DNA from: Archivesica marissinica
Taxonomy: Eukaryota > Mollusca > Bivalvia > Venerida > Vesicomyidae
Length of the DNA stretch: 64,000 nt
Assembly (NCBI GenBank): GCA_014843695.1
Contig: CM026400.1
Span: 37,556,234 to 37,620,233, forward strand
Direction of reading: 5' to 3'
Part shown: in pieces, positions 28,086 through 63,788 of the stretch
How the letters are laid out: every line of letters starts with the position of its first letter
How positions within the stretch are numbered: position 1 is the first letter of the stretch
The notes under the pieces: model-generated
Told to the model about the DNA's origin: nothing
Databases searched by the model: none
What the model saw: the letters and a program-made list of their open reading frames with translations, nothing else
Program-made: the position numbers and the translations under genes

Positions 28086-28109
28086 CTGTGGCACAAATAG
28101 AACACACTT

Positions 28110-40842: not shown

Positions 40843-40862
40843 GTCAGATTCATTGTTGTTAC

Positions 40863-41740: not shown

Positions 41741-41883
41741 TCGCGAACAACATGTATCAACATTAAGCTGGTGAAGCCGCGAACAACATGTATCAACATT
41801 AAGCTGGTGAAGCCGCGAACAACATGTATCAACATTAAGCTGGTGAAGCCGCGAACAACATGTATCAACATTAAGCTGGTGAA
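41741..41883. repeat. 36-bp tandem repeat, 4 units (copy B)
   Basis: Counterpart of 23933-24075, with the same unit number. Confidence 0.93.
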
Positions 41884-41910
41884 GTTTTTCTTCTATATTT
41901 CCTATGGTAT

Positions 41911-42098
41911 TACACATCACTCTCGAGACCTCATTCCTGATGAAATCCATCGCCACGAGGGAGAGAGAAGAGGCAATGTTGAATTTAAATGCCTTGCCTA
42001 AGAGCACAATCGTAACTACTCCAGCGGGGCTCGAACTCCGGACCTTTCGCACCTGAAGCGAACGCGCATCGACTGCGCTATCTCGAATTCCATTGTTT
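41911..42098 (-). mobile_element. SINE-B copy, minus (copy B)
   Basis: Counterpart of 24103-24290. Confidence 0.85.
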
Positions 42099-42789
42099 AT
42101 ATGTGAAGTGAATCCCACGTGTGAAGTTTAGTTTTATCATATTTTATTGCTCAATTCGTTTTACATATACATGTGAATACAAAACATGACACATTAAATA
42201 ATGGCAAACGGGTCGGGCCACAAGTTCTAGCAACATTACGTACGACCCTTCCCGACAAGATAGTAACTGAAAAGACCAGCGACCAAGCATATATAAATTT
42301 TTAAAAAATAACAATTTTATTTTTACACAAAATCAAATTTTCTGAAAAAAGTACATGTAATAGAGTTAGGAAAATAAAATAACAAAGAATAAGAATAAGT
42401 TATGAGAGAAAGAATGAGAAAGTATGAGAACGTATATGAAGTGATTCCAGGATCCGCAATTCTACACTAAGCAGAATAACTAATTGGTATCGAAATACAT
42501 TCATACATCAATACATTTACCAATGAAACATTCAATTAATTTAACATACCTTTGACGTAGTTCTAAAAAATGTGTACATTTCCTGAACACTCACGTGTAT
42601 GTTTTATAGCCCTTTGGGATTTTCAAATCGGGTGATCGATCCAGGGCCTTCATGGGCCTCTGTTTATATTAACATGTACATATGTTGTATATAGTTGGTT
42701 TTAAAGGCCTTACAGACGATCGATAGTCTCCAATGAGAGTCCTTGTTCAATAAATATTAGGATTATTATTGCAAACAATTGTTTTCCAG

Positions 42790-42861
42790 TCGAATCGTGC
42801 AGGCGATATACTCGGGTGGATCGATGTAGGGAATGCGTTCAGTTCAACCGATTCTAAGAAG
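42790..42861 (+). CDS. cytoplasmic exon 3 (copy B)
   Basis: Identical to 24982-25053 in sequence and splice sites. Confidence 0.75.
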
Positions 42862-42936
42862 GTATGTACATGTGTATTTGTATCGCGCATATCTAAAGCC
42901 ACAACGTTATTACATGATTATTAAATATGCCAAAAT

Positions 42937-43508
42937 GGGTGATGTTCGATTAGCGCAGTGGTTAGCAAGCTCACATCTCACCGATGCACCCAGGGTTCGA
43001 TCCCTGGACAGATACGTATGTGAGCTGCTACTGTGATCGACAGATTGGAGATTTCTCCACATATAAGCTTTCATCCGCGCTAACGAGAGTGATTAATATA
43101 ATATATGTGTGTGTTTTTACGTTTATTTATCGTCGCTACCGGTTGCCCATATGAGCGACGCCTCCTGAAGAGATTAGTTATTTTAGATTATGGAGGATAG
43201 TGCATGATACAGACAGAGACCCATTCCAGAATCTCCTCTGGTTCTTTTATGTGCACGGTGTAAAGCACCGACACGAGACCTCGGTTTAACATCCCATCTG
43301 AAAGACTGTTAATTTTATTAGGGTCAGACGGGGGATCGAATCTGCGAGCCTGGATTACCAGTCCAACGTGTTACCACTGGCCTACATATCCGTCTGTTTT
43401 CATTCAAGATATTCCGATTTCCTCTCCATATATAAGCTTTCATCCGCGCCAACGAGAGTGATTAATATAAGATGCTAAAGCTTGTATTGCAATCATTGTG
43501 AAATAAAC
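42937..43508. mobile_element. SINE-C / SINE-A (-) / SINE-C cluster (copy B)
   Basis: Counterpart of the cluster at 25129-25700: SINE-C 42937-43104 (+), SINE-A 43114-43398 (-), SINE-C tail 43405-43508 (+). Confidence 0.8.
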
Positions 43509-43652
43509 ACGTTAACAAATGTTTAAACTAAACAGTGCATGATGTCATATATACAGCAGGTGTAATGTACGCTCGTCCGCTTTGGATTATATGACCTTGT
43601 GAGATAATAAACTTTTCAAACATATCTCCATTTTTCTTCCACTATGTTGCAG

Positions 43653-43770
43653 TCGGCTCACAGATATGCAACAGAATCGATATAGTCTTGATAGAGAATG
43701 TGGAGAAAGAATGATAACATCTGAACACTTTGATCAAGCAGGCGAAGAGGAAATGCAAAGCTTCGGTTGA
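43653..43770 (+). CDS. terminal cytoplasmic exon, two possible frames (copy B)
   Basis: Identical to 25845-25962. The phase-0 stop is at 43683-43685 and the alternative-frame TGA at 43768-43770. Confidence 0.5.
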
Positions 43771-44565
43771 ACTTGGTGTTGGTTGCGTGCGTCTGTCTGC
43801 CTGTTAGCAAGATAACTCAATATGTTGTGGATGAACTTTGATGAAACTTTTGTATCTCTCCCGAGTGTTACTCTCTACTTTCTTGATTTGTCATTAGTGT
43901 GTGCTCAAATTGTTGCTTTAAGCTTGCTTAACCCTTTCAACACCAAGGGCCTCTAAATAGGCTTACAAAAAGTGTAGATCCAGATGAGCCGGCTCGTGAC
44001 AGTAATATTACTATTTTTAGACAATATTTACACATTTTGATAAATGAACTGGTCCAAATTTAATATTCTTATTAATTTATTGGTCTAAAACTATGATACA
44101 CCACCAGTCCATGTCAGTTACTTCGTGTTGAATGGGTTAATACATGTATACATATATGTGCTACTTTATCATACACCACAAGTCCATGTCAGTTACTTCG
44201 TGTTGAATGGGTTAATACATGTATATATCTATAAAACCAGGGATCATTTTAGAGGGCGATGTGGGCGAAATAGTTGCCCTATGCACCCTGACATTTTTTT
44301 ACAATTTTCATACAAAATATTGGTCAGTAAGATACACTGGCCCATTATAAAGTACTCCTTCTATTAAAATGTAGTATTTAATGGGCATAAGGTGCATTTT
44401 AACCATATTTTGTTGATATTTATTAAATAACACCATTTAAGAACGCGACCGCGCGCTTTCTCAATTCCCCCAACAATTCTGACCTAGAATGAACCATGCA
44501 GAACAGTAGGCAAATTTGATTGTGTGTCCCGTTGTATATAAGTTCGTCTATCTGTTTCATGCTTG
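43771..44565. other. intergenic region between converging genes (copy B)
   Basis: Counterpart of 25963-26757, with no visible differences of note. Confidence 0.5.
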
Positions 44566-45456
44566 TTTAAATATCAATATATTCCCATGTTTCCATGCAT
44601 TATATAGTAGGCAGGTTTTAGTAAATATCAATATATTCTCATGTTTCTATACATTATCTAGTAGGCAGGTTTTAGTAAATATCAATATATTCTCATGTTT
44701 CCATACATTATCTAGTAGGCAGGATTTAGTAAATATCAATATATTCCCATGTTTCCATACATTATCTAGTAGGCAGGTTTTAGTAAATATCAATATATTC
44801 TCATGTTTCCATGCATTATATAGTAGGCAGGTTTTAGTAAATATCAATATATTCCCATGTTTCCATACATTATATAGTAGACAGGTTTTAGTAAATATCA
44901 ATATATTCTCATGTTTCCATACATTATCTAGTAGGCAGGTTTTAGTAAATATCAATATATTCTCATGTTTCCATACATTATCTAGTAGGCAGGATTTAGT
45001 AAATATCAATATATTCTCATGTTTCAATACATTATCTAGTAGGCAGGTTTTAGTAAATATCAATATATTCGCATGTTTCCATACATTATATAGTAGGAAG
45101 GTTTTAGTAAATATCAATATATTCTCATGTTTACATGCATTATCTAGTAGGCAGGTGGTGTATATCAATATATTCGCATGTTTCCATACATTATCTAGTA
45201 GGCAGGTTTTAGTAAATATCAATATATTCGCATGTTTCCATACATTATATAGTAGGAAGGTTTTAGTAAATATCAATATATTCTCATGTTTACATGCATT
45301 ATCTAGTAGGCAGGTTTTAGTAAATATCAATATATTCGCATGTTTCCATACATTATCTAGTAGGCAGGTTTTAGTAAATATCAATATATTCTCATATTTC
45401 CATGCATTATCCAGTAGGAAGGTTTTAGTAAATATCAATATATTCTCATGTTTCCA
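44566..45456. repeat. 54-bp minisatellite, copy B (about 16 units)
   Basis: One unit fewer than copy A. The deletion scar reads aggcaggtggtgtatatc near 45153. Confidence 0.95.
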
Positions 45457-45656
45457 TATAATAATTCACATTATCTAAATATAGATATAAAATATGAAGT
45501 ATCGCTTTAATTGGAATCTTTTTTATCATTATAATACTGTTGCCTGCAACAAGTCACTCTACGAGAACCGCGTTGCCGCAGTATACATGCTGCGTACTGT
45601 TTGGTAGACCCTAGCGGTACCCTTTGTTGTTTTACCTGACATATCACTACACTAGT

Positions 45657-45836
45657 CTACTTCTCGAGAGCAGCAATGACACCGTATAATGCTTGTTCAA
45701 GGTCCTGAAATCTGGGGTCATCTCCAACTCCGTGGATCGTTAAATGGTTGGTAACATAGGTGATCCCTAATCCGTTCTTTATGTCCCCTATTGCTACCTG
45801 TCCTCCGTGACCTGTATGGCCAACAGTACGTTCTCG
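45657..45836 (-). CDS. hydrolase exon 8 (C-terminus)
   Basis: A 59-codon terminal exon, phase 0, after acceptor tgtgccacag. It encodes RERTVGHTGHGGQVAIGD ... FQDLEQALYGVIAALEK and stop. HTGHGG is the third conserved motif of the family. Confidence 0.88.
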   Translation of the reverse strand, partial: RERTVGHTGHGGQVAIGDIKNGLGITYVTNHLTIHGVGDDPRFQDLEQALYGVIAALEK

Positions 45837-48800
45837 CTGTGGCACAAATAGAACACACTTAAGTAAACTAAGAATCCGGACAGGTATGGCTCCGTGTTCG
45901 TTCAACCAAAGGAATAAATGCAACGTAAGCTAAGAATCCGGACGGGAAAGTCTCCCTGTTCGTTTAACCAAAGGAATAAATGCAAAGTAAACTAAGAATC
46001 CGGACGGGAATGTCACCCTGTTCGTTCAACCAAAGGAATAAATGCAAAGTAAAACATAAGATTCCGTACGGGTATGTCTCCTTGTTCTTTCAACAATAGG
46101 AATAGAAGCAATGTAAACTAAGAATCCGGACGGGAATGTCACCTTGTTCGTTCAACCAAAGGAATAAATGCAAAGTAAACTATAAATCCGGACGGGAATG
46201 TCTCTCTGTTTGTTCAAGCAAAGGAATAAATGCATCGTAAACTAAGAATCCGGACGGATATGTCTCCCTGTTCGTTCAACCAAAGGAATAAATGCAACGT
46301 AAACTAAGAATCCGGACGGGTAGATATCCCTGTTCGTTTAACCAAAGGAATAAATGTAAAGTAAACTAAGAATCCGGACCTGTTAGTCTTATTGATTGCC
46401 AAGAACTGTATCTCCCTAATGAACAAACAGAACGGATGCCAGGTAAAATAATAGGTATGCTCCGGACCGGTATGCCTGTATGTGCATTGTACCATACCAG
46501 TACAAATAAGACCAGCGGGGTTTACGCCTGCATCAGCACCATTTTGAGCTATATCGCCGGTGGGTAGTTTACTGAAGAACACATTTCCCGGACAGGCTCC
46601 AGCGGTTAACCAGCACTTCGTGCAGCAATCTCCGTAGGAAGCTGCCAACTTGTTCATATAAATGAGACACGACCTGAGCGGGGCTCGAACACGTGCCCGT
46701 CAGTAATGATGTGTTACAGTGGTATACAAGTCAACAACCTTAACCACTCGACCACGGAGGCGGACCCAATCAATTGTAAAGTTAGTTTAAAGTTGGGATG
46801 TAGGCCTATACAATTATTGTACATACCCAAGGATTTTTCCTATATAAAGTTCCTAGACCAATGACGGACTCCTCCCCGGTTAGCATCACTGAATCTCGAC
46901 CAGATACCACCGGCGTAGAAAGTTGTTCTATACTGGCACGTGATAGTAGCTGGTTCCCGTCATGTTTTTCGCCATTTGAAAGAATACCGTACAATTTAGC
47001 CAATCCTCGAGCGGTACCAGTCCCAGACAATGACGAAATTGTAACCTCCCTCATGTACGGGTTATTTAATACGTCTGTTCTCTGAAATATATCTCAATTC
47101 CTGAGTGTTCAGATATTAAGATACGTTCCTTGTTTATGGAATTCAGTAGAATGTCCTGAATTGCATTGATTATTTCGAATATTCACCCGAACGTCCGAAT
47201 ATCCGAATAGCCTACTAATCCAGTATTCGGAAACAATATTATATTTGCAAAAATGAAATAAACTGTCATAAATCAGATACGTTATTCTCTTTTGAAACCA
47301 TCATACACTCTTCCATTCATTGGTTATGGTCTTACATAGCATGTTTTGACCTGTAGTTAACTCGTGTATGTGTTTGTTCCATGTATGTTCCATTAATGAC
47401 AAACCCCTTGTGGGGACCTATACATATTTTCCAGGGCAGGCTGTAACAAAATGAAAGTGACCATTTTAACTAATGTGTAGTTGGGGCCTCTTTATCAATG
47501 GATTTCAGAGCATTTTGCCGTACCATTGAAACATTTATTCAATGATTTTATCATAAATTGGGACGAATGTATCTATACTAGATAAAGGACAGTGGTGTAT
47601 TATTCTATATCACTTATAAGGGAAATTCCCGTTTATTTGATATAAATCCGACTAGTATTAGCAGATTTGGGTTTATTCTTTTCAAATCACTGTTCCCTTT
47701 ATCAGTGAAATTAACCTCCAGGGCCTGATAAGAACCCCACACAGTGCACTGACATTGCATTCGGAACATCACAATTGACTGTTGTGAATTGTACATGCGA
47801 CAGATTTGGGTATGTAACTATATATTATATTGTTCGTAGTTGTCATTAGAGGTATTTTATCTAAAACGTCGTCTAAAGCAACTGTCCGAGACGTTACCAG
47901 AAACATGTTGTAGTAAATCGTTATTAAAAGTGGTTCTAGTGATTTACGACGATGGATATCTACTGTTCATTACATACATAATAATTACCTAATAACTACT
48001 GTTGAATCCAGTGTTGAATATATGGCTGGGGCAGAGTTGTTATCAGCTGTTGTCGAAAGGGGTGTCATGTACGCCTAAATTGCAGGAGCGGAGTAATAGG
48101 TCTCGAGTGGTTCTAAGTTTGTGTATATATATATATATATAGATATACCATATGATGTCATGATGGGTACGGAGTCGTTGTATATTTAGACCGTCACCAT
48201 GTGTATTGATTATACATAGACGTGTGTGTATCTATGTCTAAGCATTATGGTAGCTATTGCCTTGTTGTTGTACCACAATGTTATAATATAAGGTGGTAAG
48301 AAGAGGCTAGTAGATTGACGTAGCACAAGGGTATTATATTTGTTATTGTTGTAGTCGCTTCATGCCTGAGCCGTGAGAGGTGTAGCTCAGGGGCGTAGAT
48401 CCTGTTCGGAACGATCAAGATAACAAGATGGGGCACGAGCCGACTGGGATAGTTTGCCGGCGTGAGCTGGTGACGTCCATATACTGGAGAGTGTCAGCTG
48501 TTAGCGGTAGCTGTACAGCATCGAGTCCACCGTCAGTGGACAGGGTCCTTAGAACGCATGGAGTTAATGATCTTGCGTATTGTAAATCTTTAAAGTGTGC
48601 ATTATAGCACTGTGACGGCAATACTTGCCAAGCTTTTAAAGTGTGCATTATAGCACTGTGATGGCCATACGTGCCAATGTTTAAATAGTTGTATTATAGC
48701 CTAATGTTAAAGCCGAGTGTGGAACGGCAGAGATTTAGATCTCGGAACTGTGACATAAATTAACGGCATTACCAGCCGAAGACCGGGCTCTATACCGGAA

Positions 48801-51800
48801 GTGAAGCCATCATCTGTGAAGAGCCAAACTACGGACAAACATACGTCTCTTACCATCCATTGTCCGTGTTGCAAGTGTTGTTTGATGTATATTAAAAATT
48901 GTAAATCTACTTAGTCTTTATGCATACACTTGATCCTTGTATCCGTGACCCTGAGATAAGCTGGCCCTCGTGTCATTCTGTGACACAGGCTTTGCCGACC
49001 TAACGGTTAACCAGTACTAAGCAATGTGTGTGAGGTGCCTTGCTCAATGACAGTACATGCATGACCTGACAGAGTGTCGGACCTTGGGCCGTTCGATTCC
49101 AAATCCAACGCTCTACCCACAGACGCTTGGAGTCTGGACAAATGTTTGCCGGTTCAAAACCACAAAACTAAGAAACTTTGGTTTTTGTTTGGTTTTTAGG
49201 AACACTATGATACACTATAGGCTTGACACTATACATAAAAAATGTTTTACACCATTCCAAGCAAGTTTTAAAATGACACCCCGTCATTATCAAGGCTATA
49301 TATTGAAAGATAACCAGGTCGCAAATGTAAACAAACCATGTGCTACACATTTAACGGCCGTAATATGCCAGTTTCTAAACTTACTTGTAAATCCACTATT
49401 TTAGTTCTCCGCAGCAATCATTTGTCTATCAAACGATTGTCGTCTGGATGTCTACCTTTTCCTGTTTACGCTCAATTTTCTCATTGGCTGTGCTATTATA
49501 TAGCATGCTCTCATTGGCTGTGCTATTATATAACATGCTCTCATTGGCTGTGCTATTCTATAACATGCTCTCATTGGCTGTGCTATTATATAACATGTTC
49601 TTATTGAATGTGTTATCATATAGCATGCTCTCATTTGCTGTGCTATTATATAACATGCTCTCATTGGCTGTGTTATTATATAACATGCTCCCATTGGCTG
49701 TGCTATTATATAACATGCTCGCATTGGCTGAGCTATTATGTAACATGCTCTCATTGGCTGTGTTATCATATAGCATGCTCTCATTGGCTGTGCTATCATA
49801 TAGCATGCTCTCATTGGCTGTGTTATCATATAGCATGCTCTCATTGGCTGTGCTATTATATAACATGCTCTCATTGGCTGTGTTATCATATAGCATACTC
49901 TCATTGGCTGTGCTATCATATAGCATGCTATCATTGGCTGTGATATTATATAACATGCTCTCATTGGCTGTGCTATTATATAACATGCTCTCATTGGCTG
50001 TGCTATTATATAACATGCTCTCATTGGCTGAGCTATTATATAACATGCTCTCATTGGCTGTGCTGTTATATAACATGCTCTCATTGGCTGTGTTATCATA
50101 TAACATGCTCCCATTGGCTGTGCTGTTATATAACATGGTGTAATTGGCTGTGTTATTATATAACATGCTCCCATTGGCTGTGCTAGTATATGACATGCTC
50201 GCATTGGCTGAGTTATTATGTAACATGCTCTCATTGGCTGTGTTATCATATAGCATGCTCTCATTGGCTGTGCTATCATATAGCATGCTCTCATTGGCTG
50301 TGTTATCATATAGCATGCTCTCATTGGCTGTGCTATTATATAACATGCTCTCATTGGCTGTGTTATCATATAGCATGCTCTCATTGGCTGTGCTATCATA
50401 TAGCATGCTATCATTGGCTGTGTTATCATATAGCATGCTCTCATTGGCTGTGCTATTATATAACATGCTCTCATTGGCTGTGTTATCATATAGCATGCTC
50501 TCATTGGCTGTGCTATTATATAACATGCTCTCATTGGCTGTGTTATCATATAGCATGCTCTCATTGGCTGTGCTATCATATAGCATGCTATCATTGGCTG
50601 TGTTATCATATAGCATGCTCTCATTGGCTGTGCTATTATATAACATGCTCTCATTGGCTGTGTTATCATATAGCATGCTCTCATTGGCTGTGCTATCATA
50701 TAGCATGCTATCATTGGCTGTGTTATCATATAGCATGCTCTCATTGGCTGTGCTATTATATAACATGCTCTCATTGGCTGTGCTATTATGTAACATGCTC
50801 TCATTGGCTGTGCTATTATATAACATGCTCTCATTGGCTGTGCTATTATATAACATGTTCGCATTGGCTGTGTTATTATATAACATGCTCCCATTGGCTG
50901 TGCTGTTATATAACATGGTGTAATTGGCTGTGCTATTATATAACATGTTCGCATTGGCTGAGCTATTATATAACATGGTGTAATTGGCTGTGCTAGTATA
51001 TAACATGCTCTCATTGGCTGTGCTATTATATAGCATGCTCTCATTGGCTGTGCTCTTATATAGCATGCTCTCATTGGCTGTGCTATTATATAGCATGCTC
51101 TCATTGGCTGTGCTATTATATAGCATGCTCTCATTGGCTGAGCTATTATATAACATATTCTCACCTGAATTAATTCCTTGACTGGTGAAACAGATCTTGC
51201 AATGAACGACTCTGGGTGAAACACAATCTGGTACATTGGCGTTAGATACCGACGGTACTGGAACGCATCGAAAAACAACTGGTACTTAGAACGGGTTACC
51301 AACCGAGCTGTACGGTGAACATCGGCAAGTGGCGAATTCATATGGAAATCTATGCCTGAAATGAGTAAATATCATTAGTGAAACATCTGATAACGTAACC
51401 GAACTATCTTCTATTTTATTCTCGTCCGCAATTTCTACACCAGAAGTTTTCTACAGCTCGTGATGGGATCCAACTCGACGCTACGTTGGTGTTGTGGTGT
51501 ACTTATATTGCGTAAATGCTATGTAATATGGTTTATTTGGACATTCTGTACATCCCAGTACTTCCGTCTGAACAGCGTTTGACGTTTGTGTTGAATTCGC
51601 CGACCCGCTCAGCTGCACCAGGTTGTATAATATAAGAACAAGAGATCTCGGGTCCAAGACTTACACGTTTAATGTGGACGACAGAACGATCCTGTAATTG
51701 CATACGTCATCATATACACAGCATTCTTATTACACACAATACATGAATATTTAACACCAATACAGATGGATCTGTTACAGTGGTATCACGCTGGACTGGT

Positions 51801-54800
51801 AATCCAGGGATCGCAGGTTCGATGCCTGACTGATCATAATAAAATTAACAGTCTTTCAAACCGAGGTCTCATGTCGGTGCTTTACACCGGGTACATAAAA
51901 GAACCAGAGGAGATTCTGGAATGGGTCTCCGTCTGTATCATTGCACTATCCTCCAACAATCTAAAATGACCAATCTCTTCAGGAGGCGTCGCTCATGCTT
52001 TCAAACTTAGAGCACAAATAACGTAATATATATTACTATGAAGTTTCATACCATGCAGCATTATTTGATTATGACTGGTATATAATGAGTTCTTCCTTGC
52101 TAATGCTAGTTATACTTGCGAATTTGTGTTTCATCATATCGATTGATGTTTAAGGCTATAAACATGTAAATGTTTTATGCAAATAAACTTTATGTTATGT
52201 TATATGGGCAACCGGTAGCGACGATAAATAAACGTAAAACACACACACAGAGCGATAGCAAACAAAGCAATACACTACAGCACAATGGATTCATGATTTA
52301 CCTGAGGGAATCTAAATGAATATCCAGAAGGATGGTTTATTTTAGTTGAGCAGTTAAATGGCTCGTTGTTTACAATATTTCCCAAGATGGCCGATCTCGA
52401 TTTCCCCCGTGTGATTTGTGTGACCACGTGTAGTGTATTAGTCAAGGGACGTAATTAATCTGGAAATAAGTTACATGGTATATGGGAAATCAATCTACTT
52501 ATATATATATATATTAACTTAAGGATCTGCCGCACTACTCGACTACAATATATATATTAACTTACGGATCTGCCACACTACTCGACTACAATATATATAT
52601 ATTAACTTAAGGATCTGCCGCACTACTCGACTACAATATATATATATTAACTTACGGATCTGCCGAACTACTCGACTACAATATATATATTAACTTAAGG
52701 ATCTGCCGCACTACTCGACTACAATATATATATATTAACTTACGCATCTGCCGAACTACTCGACTACAATATATATATTAACTTAAGGATCTGCCGCACT
52801 ACTCGACTACAATATATATATTAACTTAATGATCTGCCGCACTACTCGACTACAATATATATATTAACTTAAGGATCTGCCGCACTACTCGACTACAATA
52901 TATATATTAACTTACGGATCTGCCACACTACTCGACTACAATATATATATATTAACTTAAGGATCTGCCGCACTACTCGACTACAATATATATATATTAA
53001 CTTACGGATCTGCCGAACTACTCGACTACAATATATATATTAACTTAAGGATCTGCCGCACTACTCGACTACAATATATATATATTAACTTACGCATCTG
53101 CCGAACTACTCGACTACAATATATATATTAACTTACGGATCTGCCACACTACTCGACTACAATATATATATATTAACTTAAGGATCTGCCGCACTACTCG
53201 ACTACAATATATATATTAACTTAATGATCTGCCGCACTACTCGACTACAGCAACCTAAATTGACGGTAAGATGTAATATACACTGGTATTATTTCTCGAA
53301 TGTCACTTAATAAAAATACAAATCACAAGAAACGCGTGTAAAATATTTTATTTCAGAGTATCAATACGCCAAAAGACAGAAAGTATTCGAACCGATGACA
53401 TTGGGGTTACCTCATCATTAGATGCGGAATAAACCCACTGCCTTATAGCACACAAACTTCCGTGACTGCTTATTCGCTCTAATAATTATATTTAGAGGGA
53501 GGGCTTTATTGCAGCAAAACGTCATGTCCGGAGGGCTTTCCGCAATCAACCGCCTTGTGAACGCACACGCTAATAAAATTAACAGTCTTTCAGCTGGGAC
53601 TTTAATCCGAGATCTGGTGTCGGAGCTTTGCACCGTGAATGTAAAAGAACCCGAGGAGACGCTGTGATGTGTCTCTGTCTGTATCATTCCACTAGCATCC
53701 ACATATCTAAAATGACCAATCTCTTCAGGAGGCGTCGCTCATATTGGGCAACCAGTAGCGACGATAAATAAACGTAAAACACACACGCATGCGCTCAGTA
53801 GACCGTCCAAAACAGAGAACGAATGCTCATTAAGCAATTAATGGTAACTGCTAATGCATTTACTATTGTGACATTATTTAAACACGTACCTTTAACTGAA
53901 CTGGTAGTGGAGATACGCAAATGGTTAATATTAGTGGAAATATATGCCGGAAAGGACACAATGGTGAAACATTAATATATTAGCTGCTGCCCTGCCTGCC
54001 CTGCCAAATGTCAGTGCCGTAGCCAGAATCTGAAAATAACCGAGGCGAACCGCCCCCCCCCAATCATGTTTGTGTATGCTTTTCTGTGCATTCTGAAGGC
54101 AGTTTTATCAGTGTTCCTATATACCTGTCGTTACTTGCCAACTTCTAACCGAGGCGAGCCCCTCATTTACCTGGGTGTGGCTAATGGCTTGAATGTATTA
54201 GAATAAATACCTAAAGGTTTTGCTATTTCATCCTGGAAAATTGTATCTGTATCCCTATGTTTGGGATCGGCGTGTTGAAGCAATTCGTCAACATACAGAC
54301 CAAACGTGAGTGCATGATAGCCAAATGCTTTTCCTGGAAATAAAACAAACAAAGGAGTTCTGGTTATTTTCGAAGCAAACAAGTCGAAATGGGACTTATG
54401 TAATATACTTGAGGCCATTAATTATGCATATTATATGTAGCGGTCTCATTAGCGTATCTGTCCCGCGGAAATCATTGCATTACCATGTACATGTCCGATT
54501 AGCACAGTGGTTAGCGCACTCGCTTCTCACCAATGCAACCTGGGTTCGATCCTCGGATCGGGAAGTATGTGAGATGGTACGGTGGTCGCCACATCGTGCA
54601 GGTGGGTTTACTCCAGGTACTCCGATTTCCTCCCACATGAATGATCACATATACGCTTTCATCCGCGCCAGCGAGAGTGATTAATATAAGTTGTTAAAAC
54701 TTGTTTCGCAATCGTTGTAATATAAATAACGTTTAAACTCTACAATGTATACTAGAAGACATAGAAAATGCCTACATTATATGATTATTATTACATATAA

Positions 54801-57800
54801 ACGAAATACGAAGGATTCCATCAAATATATATCACATATTTGTTACAAAACACAAACTGAACAACTAACACTATTCCAAATTGCTTAAAACTATGTATTT
54901 ATATAGTTATTGTTTTTCATGTAAAAATACACTCACCTGAAGTGTGCGTTTTCTATGTCCTCTAGTATAAATGTGGGGTAAACATTCTAGTACACTCGTG
55001 AAAAGCATGCACCCGTGGTTTGTGTGCACCAAATGACATTCAACTGCCGATTTAGTGAAAACCATGGTCTAATTAGTGTACTTAGTGGCTTCAAGTATAT
55101 TATATTAGCCTGGGTTCCAGTCTGTCAATTTTTAACTTCTGGCAAAATGACATATTATCAGAAACTCAATACGGCCCAATTAATAGTATCGGTGTTTAAA
55201 TATATTTATTTGACTGACCAGGCAAAATATATCCAACGCCTGTTCTCAGGTTTATATTATATGAACAAGAACGAGAAGCGGTGACAACGATTGTAGATGT
55301 ACAGTGTGTGTTCTGATTATCTGCATGTAATGAGAGACATCGGTCAGTTACTGCCCTTGAATACTACCTAAAAGTACATGTAGATAGGCCATGTTACGTG
55401 TTTTCCTCTGTTTATCGTTGTTTCCTTTGCACAACATGCTAGCATGTTATCCCACTATCGCTTCTTATCGTTATTAAATTACTATATCTCAACAGATCTC
55501 CCACACAGTATATGCAATGGGTACTTATTTGTAAAATAATGTGATCACTTAATTAACAAGTATTTGTTAAAATCACATTTATCATACCGCAACATCTGGT
55601 TAGGGCACAACAGTAAAAACAAAGGATTCTAACTAAAAGGACCTATTCGCATATTGGAATAAATCGGAATGTATCTGCCAAGGGAGGTAATAGAACATTA
55701 CAGATGTCTCTCATTGCGTTAATCAGTGTTTCCGAGAAAGACAAAGTAAAACCTGCAAGTTGTGCGTCGCAGTCTCACCTGCAGGCCATGCGGTCAGTTG
55801 TTTTGCCAGAATGTTTTGCCATTTCTGTCGGTTGTTTTTATAGTCAAATATTGAGAGTTGTTCGTCCAGATACACAAGTCCTCCCTGAAATGGCGGCAAC
55901 GGTCCCATAGAGCGTACAAGCATTTTATTTCAAGTTTCAAGTTTATTTTCATATTCCCAGGAAGCAGATTTTCAACAACATGGAATACTCATAACATAAC
56001 AAATATATATACAGTACATACATCACCGTGATACATGGCATTTATATATATATAGAGTACATACATCGACGTGATACATGGCATTTATATATATATACAG
56101 TACATACATCACCGTGATACATGGCATTTATATATATATAGAGTACATACATCACCGTGATGCATGGCATTTATATATATATAGAGTACATACATCGACG
56201 TGATACATGGCATTTATATATATATACAGTACATACATCACCGTGATACATGGCATTTATATATATATACAGTACATACATCACCGTGATACATGGCATT
56301 TATATATATATACAGTACATACATCACCGTGATACATGGCATTTATATATATATACAGTACATACATCACCGTGATGCATGGCATTTATATATACAGTAC
56401 ATACATCGACGTGATACATGGCATTTATATATATATACAGTACATACATCACCGTGATGCATGGCATTTATATATACAGTACATACATCGACGTGATACA
56501 TGGCATTTATATATATATAGAGTACATACATCACCGTGATGCATGGCATTTATATATATATATACAGTACATACATCACCGTGATACATGGCATTTATAT
56601 ATATATACAGTACATACATCGACGTGATACACGGCATTTATATATATATACAGTACATACATCGACGTGATACATGGCATTTATATATATATACAGTACA
56701 TACATCGACGTGATACATGGCATTTATATATATATACAGTACATACATCACCGTGATACATGGCATTTATATATATATACAGTACATACATCACCGTGAT
56801 ACATGGCATTTAAATATATACATGATAGTCAAACGTTTCTGAAATATTGAAAAATTGTACATTAAGTAGGTTTAACTAAGATATAGAAGTATAATTTTAT
56901 CTACACAAGATGCGAACGTTGTGTGTACTTTGATTTGCCTTGATTTAACTCGGAAGCTTAGTTTATACAAATATAGTTTAGTTCGAGTGCGAAACAAGTT
57001 CTTACAACTTATATTAATCACTCCAGAGACCTTATTCGTGATGGAATCCATTGCCACCAGGGTGAGAGACGAGGCAACGTACGTGGAATTTAAATCCCTT
57101 GCAAAAGGGTACACTCCAGCGCTACCGTTACTCCTGATCATTCGCACCTGAAGCGAAAGCGCTATCACTGCGCTATCACGTCTCACGGTATGCGAGTTTT
57201 GGTAGAACTGTGTCATGCTGGTAGAACTGTGTCATGCTGGTAGAACTGTGTCATGCTGGTAGAAATTATTCCAAAGAGTTTATAGTGCTGATAGCAGCCA
57301 GGAAGAGTGTATATATTATATATAGTAGAAATGTTTATGAACCTAGAGTCTAACGTCACAGAGTGTGATTACTTTGTTTTGTAAAATGTTTATTAAGCAA
57401 GTCATTCGGATATGTATTTCATTCGGATATGCGTTTCATTCGGATATGTATTTCATTCGGATATGTGTGTTTCATTCGGATATGTGTTCTTTCTGGATTT
57501 AACTTTGTAATATGGCTTTCTGTTCCATGTGTTATTCTGAGAAGGTACGATATACGCTACTTCACTTCTAGTATATATGCAACGACACATACAGACAGCC
57601 CCCCCCAACCCACACACACTCGTCACATCAAACTCAGTATTTAGGGTGGTACAATAAACAATGGCCAACAAAAACAAAACACACATTATTGTTTTTGCTT
57701 AAAATTAAATGTTAATAACCTGCCGACTGTTCTATATTTTACTTCTGGCAAAACGATTTGTATATATTATCAGAAAATCATTGAGGTTCAATTAACGGTT

Positions 57801-60800
57801 TTGGTGTTCAATATATATATATACAATATGACGGACAAGGCAAAACATATATTTCCCAGGCTACAACTGTTCCCAGGCTACGACTGTTACTAGTAACGAC
57901 CGTTACTAGGCCACGACTGTTCCCTTGCTACGACCGTTACTAGGCCACGACTGTTCCCAAGCTACGACTGTTACTAGGCTACGACCGTTACTATGCTACG
58001 ATTGTTCCCAGGCTACGACTGTTACTAGGCTAAAACCGTTACTAGGCTACGACTGTTTCTGGGCTACGACTGTTACTAGGCTACGACTGTTACTAGGCTA
58101 TGACTGTTACTAGGCTACGGTTGTTCCCATGCTACGACTGTTACTAGGCTAAAACCGTTACTAGGCTACGGCTGTTCCCATGCTACGACTGTTACTAGGC
58201 TACGACCATTACTAGGCTACGACCGTTACTAGGCTACAACCGTTACTAGGCTACAGCCGTTACTAGGTTACGACCGTTCCCAGGCTACGACTGTTCCCAG
58301 GCTACGACCGTTACTAGGCTACGACCGTTACTAGGCTATGGCCGTTACTAGGCTACGACCGTTACTAGGCTACAACCGTTACTAGGCTACGACCGTTCCC
58401 AGGCTACGACTATTCCCAGGCTATGAGTGTTCCCAGGCTACGACTGTTACTAGGCTATGCTAATTACACAAAGTACGGTTACCTGGTGGCTTATAAGCAT
58501 CTCGACTGTAATGTTGTCTTTCTCGCCATGTGCAAATTCTGGCCAGTAATAGCGGACAGGCTTTGAGTAGTCTAGAATGCCTCTTAATATAAAATAGTAT
58601 ATGAGTATAAACATATAGTATTCTCCGCAATAATCTGACATACTTCCGAGAAATTAATACTTTCTCATACGTTAATATATGACATATAGTGGATAACAGA
58701 CTTCTTGAGGTCAATACTTCCAAATACTATATAACCATTCACATGTGTGTACCATTTAGTGAATAACAGACAAACCATCCCGATGGAGACGAATGTTTAC
58801 ACTCGATTCGTTGTTTATATATATATATACATGCTAATACATTTACCCACTTCACTTTTAATGCATTTTGGCCTCGTCTTTGGAACAGCGTAAATTGTAA
58901 TACACACCTTTTCTTGCGAGGAACCCTTGCCAACATTGCAAATGCGCATGCCCCGTATCGTCGCGTCTGCATATCAGATGCATACATTATTAGTGAGGAC
59001 ATTCATACGAAAATAGATACAAACAGGGCATATACGTTCATCGGAGAAATGCAATAGCGAAGTAAATATTAAGAAATAAGATACTATTCCATCTACAGTC
59101 TGCGCCCGTTATGTCGCATTCCGTCGGACCGAACAAAATACTTCGACATAACCGAAGTTTGACATGATAGTGTCTGAAATGGGACTTTGATCTGACTTCG
59201 AGATAACCGGTGAATTCGACATAACCGACTTTGACATAACGGATGTAGACTGTAACTGCATACTTCTCCACCAGTTTAGCCATTAATATCGCAGCAATTC
59301 CCTTGGAGCACGAGAACACGAGCGTGGTCGTTTCTTCCTTCCATGGTCTCTGGCTCTCTATATCAGCATATCCACCCCATAGATCTAGCACAGGTTTCCC
59401 CTAGTAATATACAGAGAATGCCGCACCTTGTTCCTTGCCATTCTCCACATTTCTCCTGTTAAAATGTGTTAATAGTTTAGTTCAATCATATTTTATTGTA
59501 TATGTATACACAAACACAATCATACAAGTATTACATATAATGGATTGGACAACAAGTCATAACAACATTAGATTAGTTCATACACACTTATATTAGCTCG
59601 ATTGCGAAACAAGTTCTTACAACTTATATTAATCACTCTCGAGACCTCATTCCTGATGGAATCCATCGCCACGAGGGAGAGAGAAGAGGCAACATGGAAT
59701 TTAAATGCCTTGCCTAAGGACACAATCGTAACGGCTCCAGAGGGGGCTCGAACTCCAGACCTTTCGCACCTGAAACGAACGCGCATCCACTGCGCTATCA
59801 TGACTTCCACTCCATGCAATTAGATTCGGTCCTCCCATTAACCCGTAACCTGCCTATCAAAACTAATGTCGTGTGAGCAACGCATACATACAAAACATTA
59901 CAAAGTGAAACATGTATGGTAATATGGTGACGGACACTAATCTCAACGAACAAGTATGGGAGAGACATATATTCTTATAAACAAACACAACGCACACAAA
60001 AAAAAAAAAAAACAAGAATTGAGTATTAATCATTGAAAACAATATTAACTATTAAGATCTGTTTAGATATTGACAAATCACCTACGATGTTCAAATGCTT
60101 TAAAAACGTATACAGATAATTGCCGAACTGCATTTTCATTTTGTAATTGCATTATCTTAGCAAATTTAACCATATTATGTATATGCCAATAATATGTATT
60201 GATGTACAGTGTTCTTAAATCAGTATAAAGTGAGCATTCAATAATAAAGTGATATTCATCCTCCAACTTGTTACATACATTGCATTTCCTTTCAATGAAA
60301 GGTGTACTTTGTGGTTTTTCCCATCTACCACATTCAATTTCTAGTCTAGGTGATGACATTTGTATCCTAGACAAAGCAATTTGATATTTTTTTTACATTT
60401 GGTAACTCGAGATATGGTTGAAATTAAGACTAGTAATCGATTTATAAAACAATGTCCTGGACGAATTCTCTAAACTAGCATGCCAACCGTGTACATAATT
60501 GTCTTTAAAACGTTGCTTAACAATATTAAGGAATATATTAAAATCGCCCACACCTTGGCTTAGCCATACCTCATAAAAACCTAATCTGGAAAGTAAATCC
60601 TTAATTTCAAAGACCCAGTTTACTTTCTCCGGGTGTAATTCCAAGTCACATATTAACATATTGTATGCTATTTTGATGTACCTCTTATCTTCTGATCTGC
60701 ATATAATCAACCAGTATTATATGAGAATGAAAACCCATTTAAAAACATATCGACCATTTCACCATATACGAAACTATGTTGTGTGCACATCTTTTAAAGG

Positions 60801-63788
60801 CCTGCAGGTTGACCTATATTTGACCTTAAAGGCCTGCAGGTTGACCTATATTTGACCTTAAACACACGAGGAATAGCGGTACAAATCTGACGGTCGACGC
60901 ACTAAACACACGAGGAATAGCGGTACAAATCTGACGGTCGACGCACATCGTATTTGCCACATGCGAGGCCCTGCATGGTATACATCTAATACATGAGCAC
61001 CACTTATATCTATTATGACCCACGTACATATCAGAGGTTATAAATTGCTGAAATTGAAGTTCTGTATTTTTATAGTACTTACAACTGGTATAAACAATTC
61101 AACTCCACTTATGGCCCAAATAAGGCTGGTTGCGCGGGTTAGGCAGCCAGTTCCTGCATTGCTGTACCACACATTCAGGCATCAGTTCCCTCTTATGCCA
61201 AGTACAGTCTCCTCTTCTAGCCGCTACTTTTCTCTCTATATATCTGACATCTTTCCATGCGCCACAATTATATAGCATTGCCCAAAACCTCCTGTATAGA
61301 AGCTTTCTCTCATGTGAATTTAGATTATGCGGTGGACGATTATTAGCAGGCCACCAAAGTTGTTTGTTCTGTTCATTTATTATGCAAGGGGAACACAAGC
61401 ACAGTGGACACTCAGCAACACCTTCAGCATGCTGAGGCATAGGGGGAGGTACGTAAGCAGCCTCTGCAACGGGCATGGCGGTGGCTGTTTCTTCTATTTC
61501 CATCTCTACGTCCCAGTTCTTATTTTGCAAGAAAGTCAGCAATTCTTTTCTCTGCTCATCAGTTACATACATTGTTATTTTACTCAATGGCATCTTGTAG
61601 AAATCGGCAGAATATGTGTAATACTCGTATGGTCAAGAGATTATAATAGTATACATGTACTCATAGCATTCACTGTGATTATTATGTAGCATCAATATCG
61701 GTAAACACACACTGACACAGAGAAATATTTAAATATAACAGAAAACTTGCGAATAATACTGTAGATATATAATTAAATGAAGTATGAAGGTTACCATATA
61801 ACGAACACATATAGTTTATTCATATAAATACATACATATTATATACATGCATACAAATTATCAGTCTCAGTGATTACGCTACGGCTGATGAGGCACCTAC
61901 ATAACATGTAATCTATGTCCCTGGGCTGATCTGGATTATGTAGTTTGAATACTCATAACTATCAATTTTCTTTACAATCAATAATATACGTTTACTTAAA
62001 TTGTCAGGGCCTCATTTTGACTAATTCTCAGCTCACAGAGTGATCGTGCATATTAACCGTTAGAAAATACCTACATACGCCAAATTATACTGAATGTACT
62101 GTTACATTGTTGATACAAGCCACTAATCACATGGAACAGGTAGTAAAGTATAAATCTTTACAATTGGACGGGGTCAAACTGCAGGCCTTTAAATACACCC
62201 AATATTCTTTTACAAAGATTTACATGCACTCGTTCCATATTTCTACCTGTTAAAACCACACACTTCTGATGCATACTTTAGAATATGTGTTATCAATTTG
62301 TCGAAAGGTTCCATCATATGTTTTGGCGATAATGGTGTAAATTTATACACACAATTTATTCAACTGGAAACTAGCCTTAAGGGCCTTGACTGCTAACATG
62401 CTATCCGTTTCGTTGTATGCACCACTAGTCGTGAAAGTCACGTCAATATATTTAAATGTCTTAACAACTTCTATCTGCTGAACAGACGGATCTATAGTCC
62501 AGTGGTAACACGCTGGACTGGTAATCCAGGGATCGCAGGTTCGATCCCCCGTCTGACCCTAATAAAATTAACAGTCTTTCCGATGGGACGTTAAATCGAG
62601 GTCTGTGTTTTACACTGTACACGTACACGTAAACGAACCAGAGGGGACTCTGGAATGGGTCTCTGTCTGTATCATTACTATCATCCAATAAATCTAAAAT
62701 GACTAATCTCTTCAGGAGGCGTCGCTCATATGGGCAACCGGTAGCGACGATAAATAAACGTAAAACACACACTATCTGCTGATTAGTATAGTAAAACTGC
62801 CAATTTTGGGATCGTCTTCCACTTCTGCTAAATCACAATTTTTGTATTGGTAGCAATGTTGGTACACATTCTAACATTATACTTTGTATGCTTATGTTCA
62901 TTTGGTAAACAGTGTTTTTTTGCGATAAAACAAACGCGAAACCGAAAGTAGGACTTTCCGAGTCGATCGGTCATGCACTTGTTTACAACCGGAACGCATC
63001 GTCCGCACTTGTTTACACTCGGAATGCATCGTCCCCATTTGTCCCATGTAGTCTTTTTTAATTAAATTACTTGATATGTTGATTCATACCTCTGTTAGCT
63101 AAGTCTTTTAGGGACATTTCTACATCCCCGTGAGGGGTTCGACATTAGAGGAAGATAGATAGATAGTCTTTCATGTTCAAAATATATACGTTGTTTTCTA
63201 CATCCTCTGTTGACGCATGCACGCTGTGCGTTGTTTACATTTCGTGCGTTGATAAACAAAGTCGCGTATACGCCGGTTTAAATGTATTGGAATGTTATCG
63301 TTTCTGAGGGACCATTTCTATTTTTGTAAACACACACACATTAGTATTTATATTTTACCCTAACCATCCTTTATTACGATGTAATGCTGCTTTAATAGTT
63401 AGTCTTAACTCCCCTGACACCGCTATCGCTAGGGAAACAAATGATGTAAGAAAGTTGTAGAGTCGATTACGGAGGTTGGAAACTTGAGTACTGGTTCTTA
63501 TCGAGAAAATACGAGTGGTCTACCCTTCCCTTCTACAGCATTATCTCCCAGTAATAGTCCGAGAAAATGATTGATGGGCAGTAATAGAAAAGTGAATACT
63601 TCATTAGGTATATTCACTCTAAAATGTTACAACAAAAACACTTACTTGAAAATGTCAGCGACATTCTTGAAATCTGGGTGCCACGTTCCTCCAAAATTAA
63701 CAGGTAATTTCTTCTCAAATAAACGCGACAATCTCGTGACCACAACGAAAATGACACAAAGAACAGCTGCTTGTTTTAAGACCCCCAT
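45657..63788 (-). CDS. beta-lactamase-like serine hydrolase, 8 exons, with an in-frame stop
   Basis: Whole-gene entry. Eight minus-strand exons, all with GT-AG sites and matching phases: 63646-63788, 59264-59455, 58483-58582, 55779-55884, 54211-54333, 51165-51355, 46827-47081 and 45657-45836. They total 1,290 bp, or 429 residues plus stop. Residues 8-20 form a hydrophobic signal anchor (AAVLCVIFVVVT). The rest follows the beta-lactamase/transpeptidase-like family as in animal LACTB-type proteins and bacterial family VIII esterases: DLWGGYAD near 72, SCSK (SxxK nucleophile/base) at 96-99, GYHALTFG (catalytic Tyr 186), GTARGLAKLYGIL in exon 7, and HTGHGG (the KTG-equivalent) at 377-382. Such enzymes hydrolyse esters or peptides; the substrate here is unknown. 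Codon 66 is TAG where the family usually has a short polar residue before GKPVLDLWGG, so this allele is a pseudogene or contains a sequence error. Exons 7-8 are also present in copy A. Introns are packed with arrays and mobile elements. Confidence 0.85.
45861..46381. repeat. 62-bp minisatellite, copy B
   Basis: Counterpart of 28110-28630. Confidence 0.92.
46508..46764 (-). mobile_element. SINE-D copy, minus (copy B)
   Basis: Counterpart of 28757-29013. Confidence 0.8.
46827..47081 (-). CDS. hydrolase exon 7
   Basis: A phase 0-0 exon of 85 codons: RTDVLNNPYMREVTISSL, then SGTGTARGLAKLYGIL, then LLSRASIEQLSTPVVSG, and GLGTLYRKNPW at the donor. The G-T-A-R-G-L-A stretch is characteristic of the family. 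Confidence 0.88.
47082..49468. other. hydrolase intron 6, unique part (copy B)
   Basis: Counterpart of 29331-31717, essentially identical; no exon recognised. Confidence 0.55.
49469..51157. repeat. 30-bp minisatellite with CCAAT/TATA-like units, copy B
   Basis: About 56 units, complete on its right side. It ends 7 bp before the donor of hydrolase exon 6 (on the minus strand it begins just after that donor). The 120-bp higher-order unit is seen at about 50330-50760; simpler units follow. Confidence 0.95.
51165..51355 (-). CDS. hydrolase exon 6
   Basis: 191 bp, phase 1 to 0, acceptor tactcatttcag and donor ttcag|gtgaga. It encodes GIDFHMNSPLADVHRTARLV, then a Tyr/Phe-rich segment (YQLFFDAFQYRRYLTPMYQI) ending SVSPVKELIQ. 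Present only once in the window, because copy A stops in the array beside it. Confidence 0.85.
51765..52240 (+). mobile_element. SINE-A copy split by a LINE 3'-end insertion
   Basis: Complete tRNA head (cagtggtatcacgctggact) and body to cgtcgctcat at about 51996, then about 205 bp of foreign sequence, then the rest of the SINE (atgggcaaccggtagcgacg). Confidence 0.85.
51997..52203 (+). mobile_element. LINE-like 3' tail nested in SINE-A
   Basis: Ends atgcaaataaactttatgtt then atgttat, a short pentanucleotide-type tail as found at the 3' ends of CR1/L2-like LINEs. The identity of the LINE is inferred only from this tail. Confidence 0.5.
52495..53250. repeat. about 43-bp minisatellite (18 units)
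   Basis: Monomer ttaacttaaggatctgccgc + actactcgactacaatatat + ata. The TA run length varies, and a block of several units is itself repeated (52500-52800 resembles 52860-53110). In hydrolase intron 5. Confidence 0.93.
53565..53785 (+). mobile_element. SINE-A copy, 5'-truncated
   Basis: Starts at gctaataaaattaacagtct and runs to the gacgataaataaacgtaaaa tail plus (CA)n. Confidence 0.8.
53786..54210. other. hydrolase intron 5, remainder
   Basis: No repeat family recognised except a C-run at about 54051-54060. Confidence 0.5.
54211..54333 (-). CDS. hydrolase exon 5 (catalytic Tyr)
   Basis: 123 bp, phase 1-1, acceptor gttttatttccag and donor tttag|gtattt. It encodes GKAFGYHALTFGLYVDELLQ, then IFQDEIAKPLG. 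GYHALTFG is the conserved tyrosine motif. Confidence 0.87.
54487..54735 (+). mobile_element. SINE-C, full-length
   Basis: The best SINE-C copy in the window: A-box-like attagcacagtggttagcgc, B-box-like gggttcgatcctcgg, central ctccaggtactccgatttcc, gctttcatccgcgccagcga, and an AATAA-rich end. Confidence 0.88.
54736..55328. other. hydrolase intron 4, no feature recognised
   Basis: AT-rich; an open frame at 55015-55284 (+) has no recognisable domain. Confidence 0.45.
55329..55715 (+). mobile_element. MITE-1 copy with perfect inverted ends
   Basis: 387 bp, aatgagagacatc to gatgtctctcatt. It lies in hydrolase intron 4, 63 bp from exon 4. Confidence 0.87.
55779..55884 (-). CDS. hydrolase exon 4
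   Basis: 106 bp, phase 0 to 1. It encodes GGLVYLDEQLSIFDYKNN, then WQNILAKQLTAWPAG, the segment expected between the SHQ and GYHA motifs. Acceptor ccatttcag, donor ctgcag|gtgaga. Confidence 0.85.
56030..56815. repeat. about 42-bp minisatellite (about 18 units)
   Basis: Monomer tacagtacatacatcaccgt + gatacatggcatttatatat + ata, with alternating caccgtg and cgacgtg variants. Confidence 0.93.
56985..57182 (-). mobile_element. SINE-B copy, minus, diverged
   Basis: Minus-strand tail (cgaaacaagttcttacaact), body and tRNA-like end (cgctatcactgcgctatcac). Confidence 0.78.
57188..57490. repeat. two short minisatellites (19 bp and 17 bp)
   Basis: ggtagaactgtgtcatgct, three to four units at 57200-57262; and attcggatatgtgtttc, about five units at 57405-57490. 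Confidence 0.85.
57491..57854. other. hydrolase intron 3, no feature recognised
   Basis: Contains a C-run/CA-rich patch near 57599-57622 and a (TA)n near 57814; otherwise unremarkable. Confidence 0.5.
57855..58458. repeat. 17-bp minisatellite (about 35 units)
   Basis: Monomer ggctacgactgttacta, with cccagg / actagg and gac / gcc alternates. It ends about 25 bp from the donor of hydrolase exon 3, so it occupies the start of intron 3. Confidence 0.94.
58483..58582 (-). CDS. hydrolase exon 3
   Basis: 100 bp, phase 2 to 0. It encodes GILDYSKPVRYYWPEFAHGE, then ITVEMLISHQ, the family's block after the SxxK helix. The acceptor tatattaag is weak; the donor ccaccag|gtaacc is good. Confidence 0.87.
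59096..59252. mobile_element. MITE-2 copy with TA target duplication
   Basis: 157 bp: TA at 59094-59095, ends cagtctgcgcccgttatgtc and gacataacggatgtagactg, TA at 59253-59254. TA targets and CAGT-type ends fit a pogo/Tc1-mariner-derived MITE. It lies 11 bp from the donor side of hydrolase exon 2. Confidence 0.82.
59264..59455 (-). CDS. hydrolase exon 2 (SxxK) with in-frame TAG
   Basis: 192 bp, phase 2-2, acceptor cattttaacag (AG 59456-59457), donor gagaa|gtatgc. It encodes NVENGKEQGAAFSVYY, then TAG at 59401-59403, then GKPVLDLWGGYADIESQRPW and LVFSCSKGIAAILMAKLVE. Protein-like sequence in the same frame on both sides of the stop shows the exon is one unit with a nonsense change. Starting at the second half after tattactag would put it out of frame with exon 1. 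Confidence 0.87.
59590..59815 (-). mobile_element. SINE-B, full-length, minus
   Basis: Best SINE-B copy: the minus strand has a tRNA-like head (gatagcgcagtggatgcgcg, gttcgagccccctctgg), body and tail (cgcaatcgagctaatataag). Confidence 0.88.
60072..60793 (-). pseudogene. LINE reverse-transcriptase remnant, 3' part
   Basis: On the minus strand, QHSFVYGEMVDM appears next to the TTAA at 60794. Then follow NWVFEIKDLLSRLGFYEVWL, SQGVGDFNIFLNIVKQR, SSRTLFYKSI and the zinc-binding tail CNVCNKLEDEYHFIIECSLY, with frameshifts between segments. This is the C-terminal half of a mollusc-type LINE ORF2 and continues the remnant at 62193-62477. Confidence 0.8.
60794..60946. repeat. subterminal tandem duplications of the TTAA element
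   Basis: A 32-bp unit starting ttaaaggcctgcaggttgac occurs twice (60794 and 60826). A 44-bp unit starting taaacacacgaggaatagcg occurs twice (60859 and 60903). Confidence 0.88.
60798..62188. mobile_element. TTAA-flanked, TIR-bounded element carrying a P2X7-ballast-like gene
   Basis: The left end aggcctgcaggttgacc (60798-60814) and the reverse complement of the right end, aggcctgcagtttgacc (62172-62188), match at 16 of 17 positions. TTAA lies directly outside on both sides (60794-60797, 62189-62192). The flanks are two consecutive pieces of one LINE ORF: ...CKRILGV on the right, QHSFVYGE... on the left. The 1,391-bp unit therefore looks like an insertion into the LINE with a 4-bp target duplication. 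TTAA targets are known for piggyBac and Kolobok superfamilies. The end does not start with the CC usual for piggyBac, so class is undecided. No transposase fits in this length; the only gene is the minus-strand ORF at 61099-61593. Confidence 0.65.
61099..61593 (-). CDS. P2X7 C-terminal 'ballast'-like domain protein, intronless
   Basis: A 164-codon ORF, intact from ATG (61593) to TGA (61099). Residues 1-60 are a short polar N-terminus (MPLSKITMYVTDEQRKELLT...). From 61 on the protein resembles the cytoplasmic ballast region of vertebrate P2X7 receptors, which also exists as a free-standing domain in many invertebrates. A Cys cluster lies at 62, 65, 67 and 70 (CPLCLCSPC), then SHERKLLYRRFWAMLYNCGA, then RRGDCTWHKRELMPECVVQQ and CRNWLPNP...PYLGHKW near the end. 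Eight Cys in all (also 110, 130, 141, 146) suit zinc binding. No transmembrane or P2X channel segment is present. It lies inside the TTAA element and within an intron of the hydrolase gene on the same strand. Function unknown; the similarity call is from remembered family features. Confidence 0.7.
   Translation of the reverse strand: MPLSKITMYVTDEQRKELLTFLQNKNWDVEMEIEETATAMPVAEAAYVPPPMPQHAEGVAECPLCLCSPCIINEQNKQLWWPANNRPPHNLNSHERKLLYRRFWAMLYNCGAWKDVRYIERKVAARRGDCTWHKRELMPECVVQQCRNWLPNPRNQPYLGHKWS
62193..62477 (-). pseudogene. LINE reverse-transcriptase remnant, 5' part
   Basis: Minus strand: VVKTFKYIDVTFTTSGAYNE, LAVKALKASFQLNKL, then frame-shifted FDKLITHILKYASEVCGF and ERVHVNLCKRILGV up to the TTAA at 62189. 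These are the thumb-side motifs following the LINE RT domain. The next piece resumes at 60793 beyond the TTAA element. Confidence 0.78.
62484..62775 (+). mobile_element. SINE-A, full-length
   Basis: Best SINE-A copy: A-box-like tagtccagtggtaacacgct, anticodon arm ctggactggtaatccag, B-box ggttcgatcccc, body, and aataaacgtaaaacacacac end. The anticodon loop reads CTGGTAA. Confidence 0.9.
62776..63645. other. hydrolase intron 1, proximal part
   Basis: No recognised repeat family beyond a short gatagata run near 63150-63165 and a (CA)n near 63330. No exon recognised. Confidence 0.5.
63646..63788 (-). CDS. hydrolase exon 1 (start, signal anchor)
   Basis: ATG at 63786-63788, followed by MGVLKQAAVLCVIFVVVTRL, then FGGTWHPDFKNVADIF, leaving in phase 2 at donor aa|gtaagt (63644-63645). 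G at +4 supports this start. The frame is open farther upstream only because a 57-bp tandem repeat lies there. The W/VHP-x-F motif before the catalytic domain is typical of the family. Confidence 0.82.

Follow-up and report, generated by a model that had tools for sequence, protein, structure and literature searches.

The window, by which we mean the whole 64,000-nucleotide stretch of Archivesica marissinica DNA analysed here, contains an element of 1,391 bp between two TTAA sites, inserted in a decayed LINE (Table 1). Its ends read AG...CT, and with TTTAAA included the inverted repeat reaches 22 nt at 95%. The sole protein encoded by this short form is a 164-aa open reading frame (ORF). We call its product KolX-like after KolX, which is encoded together with a transposase by the Kolobok elements Kol0 (Kojima & Bao, 2022; PMC9587614).

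Table 1. Features of the inserted element and its surroundings (window positions), and loci elsewhere in the genome with transposase pieces.
Feature	Position or locus	Strand	Basis or remark
Decayed LINE, downstream of insertion, reading from KMCTQHSFVYGE...	60078..60793	-	related copies in window
Left TTAA target-site copy	60794..60797	.	read in sequence
Two exact 32-bp terminal units	60794..60857	.	TTAA at each start
Left 17-bp terminal inverted repeat	60798..60814	+	17-mer shared by fetched copies at their left ends
Two exact 44-bp subterminal units	60859..60946	.	
KolX-like ORF, intact, 164 aa	61102..61593	-	stop codon 61099-61101
Deletion junction, AT-rich repeat	61828..61853 (approximate)	.	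~2.2 kb with transposase gene absent relative to L079
Right 17-bp terminal inverted repeat	62172..62188	-	pairs with left end at 16 of 17 positions (60798-60814 against 62188-62172)
Right TTAA target-site copy	62189..62192	.	read in sequence
Decayed LINE, upstream of insertion, reading to ...CKRILGV	62193..62480 (outer border approximate)	-	by reading
Loci with transposase pieces	L010, L016, L019, L023, L024, L025, L034		
Loci with transposase pieces, continued	L035, L040, L050, L055, L062, L070		

We compared all 10,695 pairs of TTAA sites that lie 100-3000 bp apart in the whole window. Pairing at 16 of 17 positions was reached only by the two pairs belonging to this element (60794 or 60826 with 62192), and the next-best pair in the window reached 15/17. 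The sequence-only reading of this DNA had described 17-bp inverted ends with TTAA outside both and an intact ORF between them. Both descriptions are confirmed: the pairing is unmatched in five block shuffles of the window (maxima 11-13/17), and the 164-aa frame is open from 61593 to 61102 on the minus strand.

The LINE reading is interrupted at one TTAA and continues at the other. The left flank has relatives at 19820-20191 and 35839-36203, both of them LINE copies in the window; the right flank is identified as LINE by reading only. That the LINE stops at one TTAA and resumes at the other had been noticed from the sequence alone, and the break and the continuation are borne out, but the two parts are out of frame: when a single TTAA is retained, the V of ...CKRILGV and the frame of KMCTQHSFVYGE are 5 nt apart. 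The LINE is decayed and has frame shifts at other places too. By eye, LINE ORFs at L034 and L075 have LGV, nine residues, and then YGD or SGE; in the window LINE, nine residues (KMCTQHSFV) lie past the 5 nt and before YGE. No relative of the LINE-flank protein was found in viral_contigs.

The window has several other repeated features. A large direct duplication (18839-33010 versus 34013-51163) has a core (23100-33010 versus 40908-50761) at 99.2-99.3% and a preceding part at ~92-93%, with a 1,000-base assembly gap (33011-34010) between the copies; it is either true or an assembly artefact. Seven 123-bp repeats encoding EGF-like units (8835-9696) run into another assembly gap (9697-10696). A further TTAA-bounded stretch (54681-57017) has inverted ends pairing at 15/17 and a 43-bp tandem array inside. 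Each copy of the duplication also holds one TTAA-bounded 0.28-kb stretch with CCC-type inverted ends pairing at 14/17 (26120-26407 and 43928-44215), which could be a piggyBac-type miniature element. The tRNA-Thr-like heads of a SINE-like repeat were identified at 62488-62560 and 51769-51836.

Copies and unoccupied sites in the genome

Copies were sought in G000, the genome from which the window comes (2,808 contigs, 1.54 Gb). Scoring of the best 40 of 433 candidates gave at least 48 matches to the 109-bp left end, several of them within repeat arrays of a single copy. At least nine of the matches reach 100%; they come from nine contigs, one of which is the window's own. The right end has at least 18 matches. 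For the 164-aa protein, all 150 of the best 150 of 1,482 candidates are identical, full-length and stop-free, and they sit on contigs C1 to C6; this count is a lower bound for a search in which the best candidates were ranked first.

Nearly all fetched copies have AG...CT ends. Among 54 non-redundant copies that retain both ends and 60 bp or more of flanking sequence on either side, TTAA stands on both sides in 51, and one side is without TTAA in the other three. The number of 32-bp units in these copies is one in 40, two in 11, three in one and nine in two. Ends were paired automatically, and nested copies may be mispaired (e.g., L067, 446 bp). The left ends at L001 (1277-1568) and L009 (1277-1568) have nine 32-bp units, nearly all of them started by TTAA.

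Unoccupied relatives of the insertion sites were compared in seven chosen pairs. In four of these (L014, L015, L016 and L068) the relative has a single TTAA and is base-exact at the insertion point; in the other three (L038, L057 and L076) it is continuous and the tetramer has diverged. Matches that span a junction within a locus's own arrays or neighbours (L022, L027, L030, L040 and L054) were left out. At L016 the element has inserted into a second copy of itself, and window positions 61850-62147 are the unoccupied counterpart of this site. A search with the ends for other TTAA-flanked copies had been suggested by the sequence-only reading as a check on insertion; it yielded many such copies with differing flanks, and the unoccupied sites besides. 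SINE-like repeats of the window align across insertion sites of other element copies. At L014 and L057, apparently the same TTAA was hit in two copies of one repeat, which looks like independent reuse of one target.

Copies often lie close together. Those that abut have one TTAA in common (L030, L035, L040). Among the 76 copies listed on C2 and C5, eight neighbour gaps are below 4 kb, versus an approximate expectation of ~0.11 under uniform placement, and in six of the eight close KolX pairs the orientation is opposite. Self-insertion and local hopping are alternative explanations for the close pairs. A scan of viral_contigs and genome_contigs for KolX-like DNA gave nothing confirmed by tblastn, and the pattern of the terminal inverted repeats had no exact match in either set.

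The 3.5-kb relative and its broken transposase gene

The locus L079 (C1:65188300-65193100) holds an element of 3,552 bp with TTAA on both sides, each end of which is one mismatch off the corresponding end of the window element. Its KolX ORF differs from that of the window at 0 of 492 nt and reads toward the left end. A transposase gene reads toward the right end on the opposite strand, in two readable pieces broken between ~3168 and ~3452. The transposase was spotted among the ORFs that adjoin element ends in the fetched loci, and pieces of 35-360 residues are present near element ends in 13 more loci (Table 1; among the fetched loci, L043 and L044 overlap L079, and L047 overlaps L035). No uninterrupted full-length transposase was found in the fetched loci, the longest open piece being 360 aa (L050). 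The longer relative with a transposase and the same ORF that the sequence-only reading had envisaged is thus present, with its transposase gene broken.

Two pieces score above the cutoff of Pfam PF20700 (26.5 bits), and their matches follow one another along the profile: that of L079 with 30.1 bits at profile positions 3-200, and that of L050 with 29.9 bits at positions 238-355. By eye, the motifs TDARHS, HDRNTS, DTWH, a Cys/His cluster and then SSVESFNN can be recognised, in agreement with the signature published for Kolobok (PMC9587614).

Alignment of the window form with L079 runs to element position ~1060 and picks up again at ~1035, across the AT-rich repeat. The longer form at L011 tracks L079 for 55 bp beyond the window form. 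As these two part from L079 at different points, at least two deletion forms exist, and KolX is kept in both. Given the transposase gene, the nearly identical ends and the shared ORF of L079, we conclude that the window copy is a non-autonomous deletion derivative.

The short form codes for this protein alone, as would be expected if a host ballast-domain gene had been captured by a transposon. We reject this explanation, which we regard as extremely improbable, on the ground that the same ORF adjoins the transposase gene in L079; moreover, Kolobok Kol0 is reported to have KolX as its second gene (PMC9587614).

The ends, the TTAA sites, the copies, the unoccupied sites, the longer relative and the deletion are directly observed. 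The 3.5-kb relative has both the KolX-like gene and the transposase gene, flanked by almost identical ends. From such an element the transposase gene was lost through an internal deletion at a short, AT-rich direct repeat, with KolX and the two ends retained. The short form inserts at TTAA and would be mobilised in trans by an intact sibling of that transposase. KolX itself may serve transposition as a metal-binding accessory or regulatory protein. In favour of such a role, the chances of which we consider evenly balanced, are its Cys cluster and its position in the longer element.

Sequence variation among the copies

Differences of ~1% between copies indicate a recent burst, and this level of divergence points to recent multiplication of the element. 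For codon analysis we used young copies only and dropped the overlapping loci L033, L044, L047 and L048. Across 44 places, the distinct codon variants comprise 11 synonymous, 39 non-synonymous and five nonsense changes; with 98 synonymous and 394 non-synonymous sites behind these counts, dN/dS is ~1. The ORF is gapped in five of the 44 copies, and codon position 3 is the least variable among copies. The copies differ pairwise by 0.0067 within the ORF, as against 0.0098, 0.0072 and 0.0093 for three stretches of non-coding DNA. The copies seem to drift neutrally after insertion. Because the codon changes look neutral, KolX is probably carried along.

KolX might instead be needed in cis, such that a copy is mobilised, or is spared silencing, only if it makes its own KolX. 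Among loci fetched by ends (L001-L048, overlaps removed), 29 ORF alignments are full-length and stop-free, and 19 of these, counting that of the window itself, have the same sequence as the window ORF; another six are full-length with a stop, and the rest are partial. These ORFs, and the retention of KolX in each of the two deletion forms, are what a cis requirement would lead one to expect. Against it are the dN/dS of ~1, the gapped ORFs and the low variability of codon position 3; the ORF is slightly less variable than the non-coding stretches, yet has no pattern of purifying selection. We consider a cis requirement unlikely. It is likewise doubtful that KolX, acting in cis or as a dosage factor (e.g., by protecting or recruiting its own DNA), lets deletions that keep it outcompete both the parent and deletions that lack it. 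If true, such dosage or cis action would account for two KolX-keeping forms and many identical ORFs; the neutral codon changes, seen in young copies, count against it.

The KolX-like protein and the P2X7 ballast

KolX has been likened to residues 476-595 of P2X7, seven Cys being conserved, and the origin of P2X7 by fusion with KolX was published in 2022 (Kojima & Bao, 2022; PMC9587614). No function is assigned to KolX in the portions of that paper on which we rely. Ballast domains, with their zinc-coordinating Cys, have been described across animals (Rump et al., 2020; PMC7016195); the term "transpos" is absent from the main text of that article.

With the ORF alone as query, we recovered the protein itself and two relatives. 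An alignment of these three found 45 proteins (E up to 10), and a further alignment found 54. In total, 91 distinct proteins of the KolX-like family were collected, including one from the tick Ixodes scapularis. The alignments took in 40 of the 45 and 78 of the 91 proteins, those left out being mostly short or truncated. At least 90% of the 78 members retain Cys 62, 65, 70 and 141 as well as Pro 69. The Cys pattern of the family consists of a CxxCxCxPC cluster and the Cys of MPxC. Relative to the published description of the ballast domain (PMC9587614), the Cys set in the window ORF is incomplete.

Of the Pfam families, P2RX7_C is matched by the largest number of members (nine of the 78, with E up to 1), but the best E is 0.064 and the cutoff is not reached. 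Seven of these matches, inspected singly, all fall at positions 157-191 of the 192 in the profile. The window's own protein did not match P2RX7_C even at E up to 10, and the ORF alone had no credible match in Pfam, PDB or NCBIfam. Profile searches of PDB sequences from the 40 and the 78 members did not find P2X7, nor did a fold search (Foldseek, VIA-align) with the predicted structure of the window protein (mean pLDDT 88.6). Comparisons with one P2X7 fragment gave E 15 with hmmsearch, where 41 of 2,000 shuffles scored higher, and in hhalign 51 of 600 shuffles were equal or better; we do not count either as evidence.

We use the name KolX-like on account of the sub-threshold P2RX7_C matches and the lack of a PDB or fold match; a distant relation to the ballast is possible. 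The sequence-only reading had called the gene P2X7-ballast-like. This fared less well than its description of the insertion: the sub-threshold matches of nine in 78 relatives agree with it, but the window protein, the PDB sequences and the fold search gave none. Its broader idea, that a transposon spreads this domain, is upheld for the transposon and only faintly for the ballast, and was already published with KolX (PMC9587614). Among the transposon papers listed in a literature search, none uses the term "P2X purinoceptor 7-like".

Classification and comparison with known systems

In the published description, Kolobok termini are RR...YY and differ from those of piggyBac, and the Kolobok transposase has C/DxxH, with a zinc finger before the last E in most lineages (PMC9587614). 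The window element has the 4-bp TTAA target-site duplication and the termini 5'-RR and YY-3' (AG...CT). A DDD/E transposase with C/DxxH is present in the longer relatives and absent from the window copy, the motifs having been recognised by eye; DTWH agrees with C/DxxH by the same means. PF20700 is named Mutator-like, and its tie to Kolobok is drawn from the motifs and termini. We are highly confident that the window element is a non-autonomous, cut-and-paste DNA transposon of the Kolobok superfamily.

A piggyBac-type element would share the TTAA duplication, and a few piggyBac families do encode a protein resembling the KolX C-terminus without most of the seven Cys (PMC9587614), much as the ORF here is without the full ballast Cys set. 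However, the termini here are RR...YY, which those of piggyBac are reported not to be (PMC9587614), and the two transposase pieces, which exceed the PF20700 cutoff, have no match to a piggyBac family at E up to 1. We regard a piggyBac identity as very unlikely.

The Kolobok element in the window is a further example of a published kind, and the idea of a ballast-carrying transposon is not new. It provides a young, natural, many-copy system within a single genome for the kind of protein that has been proposed as the source of the P2X7 C-terminal domain (PMC9587614). Intact KolX genes, forms with and without the transposase gene, and base-exact unoccupied sites occur in this one genome, and make the role of KolX testable. 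If the Cys-poor KolX-like protein is a true relative, a wider family stands behind the domain of P2X7.

The protein resembles the cytoplasmic ballast of P2X7 (PMC7016195; P2RX7_C) in the C-terminal motif (L/M)P.C...R...(F/Y)P...Y.G, but the family is below the Pfam cutoff, has no PDB sequence or fold match and has another Cys pattern. The piggyBac elements with a protein like the KolX C-terminus (PMC9587614) are alike in TTAA and in a protein poor in conserved Cys, and differ in termini and transposase family. KolobokP (PMC9587614) is of the same superfamily and has TTAA and multimers of copies, but its terminal direct repeats are ~450 or 660 bp, whereas the direct repeats in and around the window element are 14 to 44 bp, and it has a His-Me finger nuclease, whereas none was recognised in the transposase piece of L079 that was scanned.

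Kolobok Kol0 (PMC9587614) differs from the window copy in having a transposase. Seven Cys are reported for its KolX, whereas the present family has CxxCxCxPC and the Cys of MPxC; the P2RX7_C match of this family is sub-threshold and covers the tail only, the Kol0 KolX being compared here by its description. The TTAA duplication and RR...YY termini are shared with Kol0, as are, in the longer relative, a C/DxxH-type transposase and a second small ORF.
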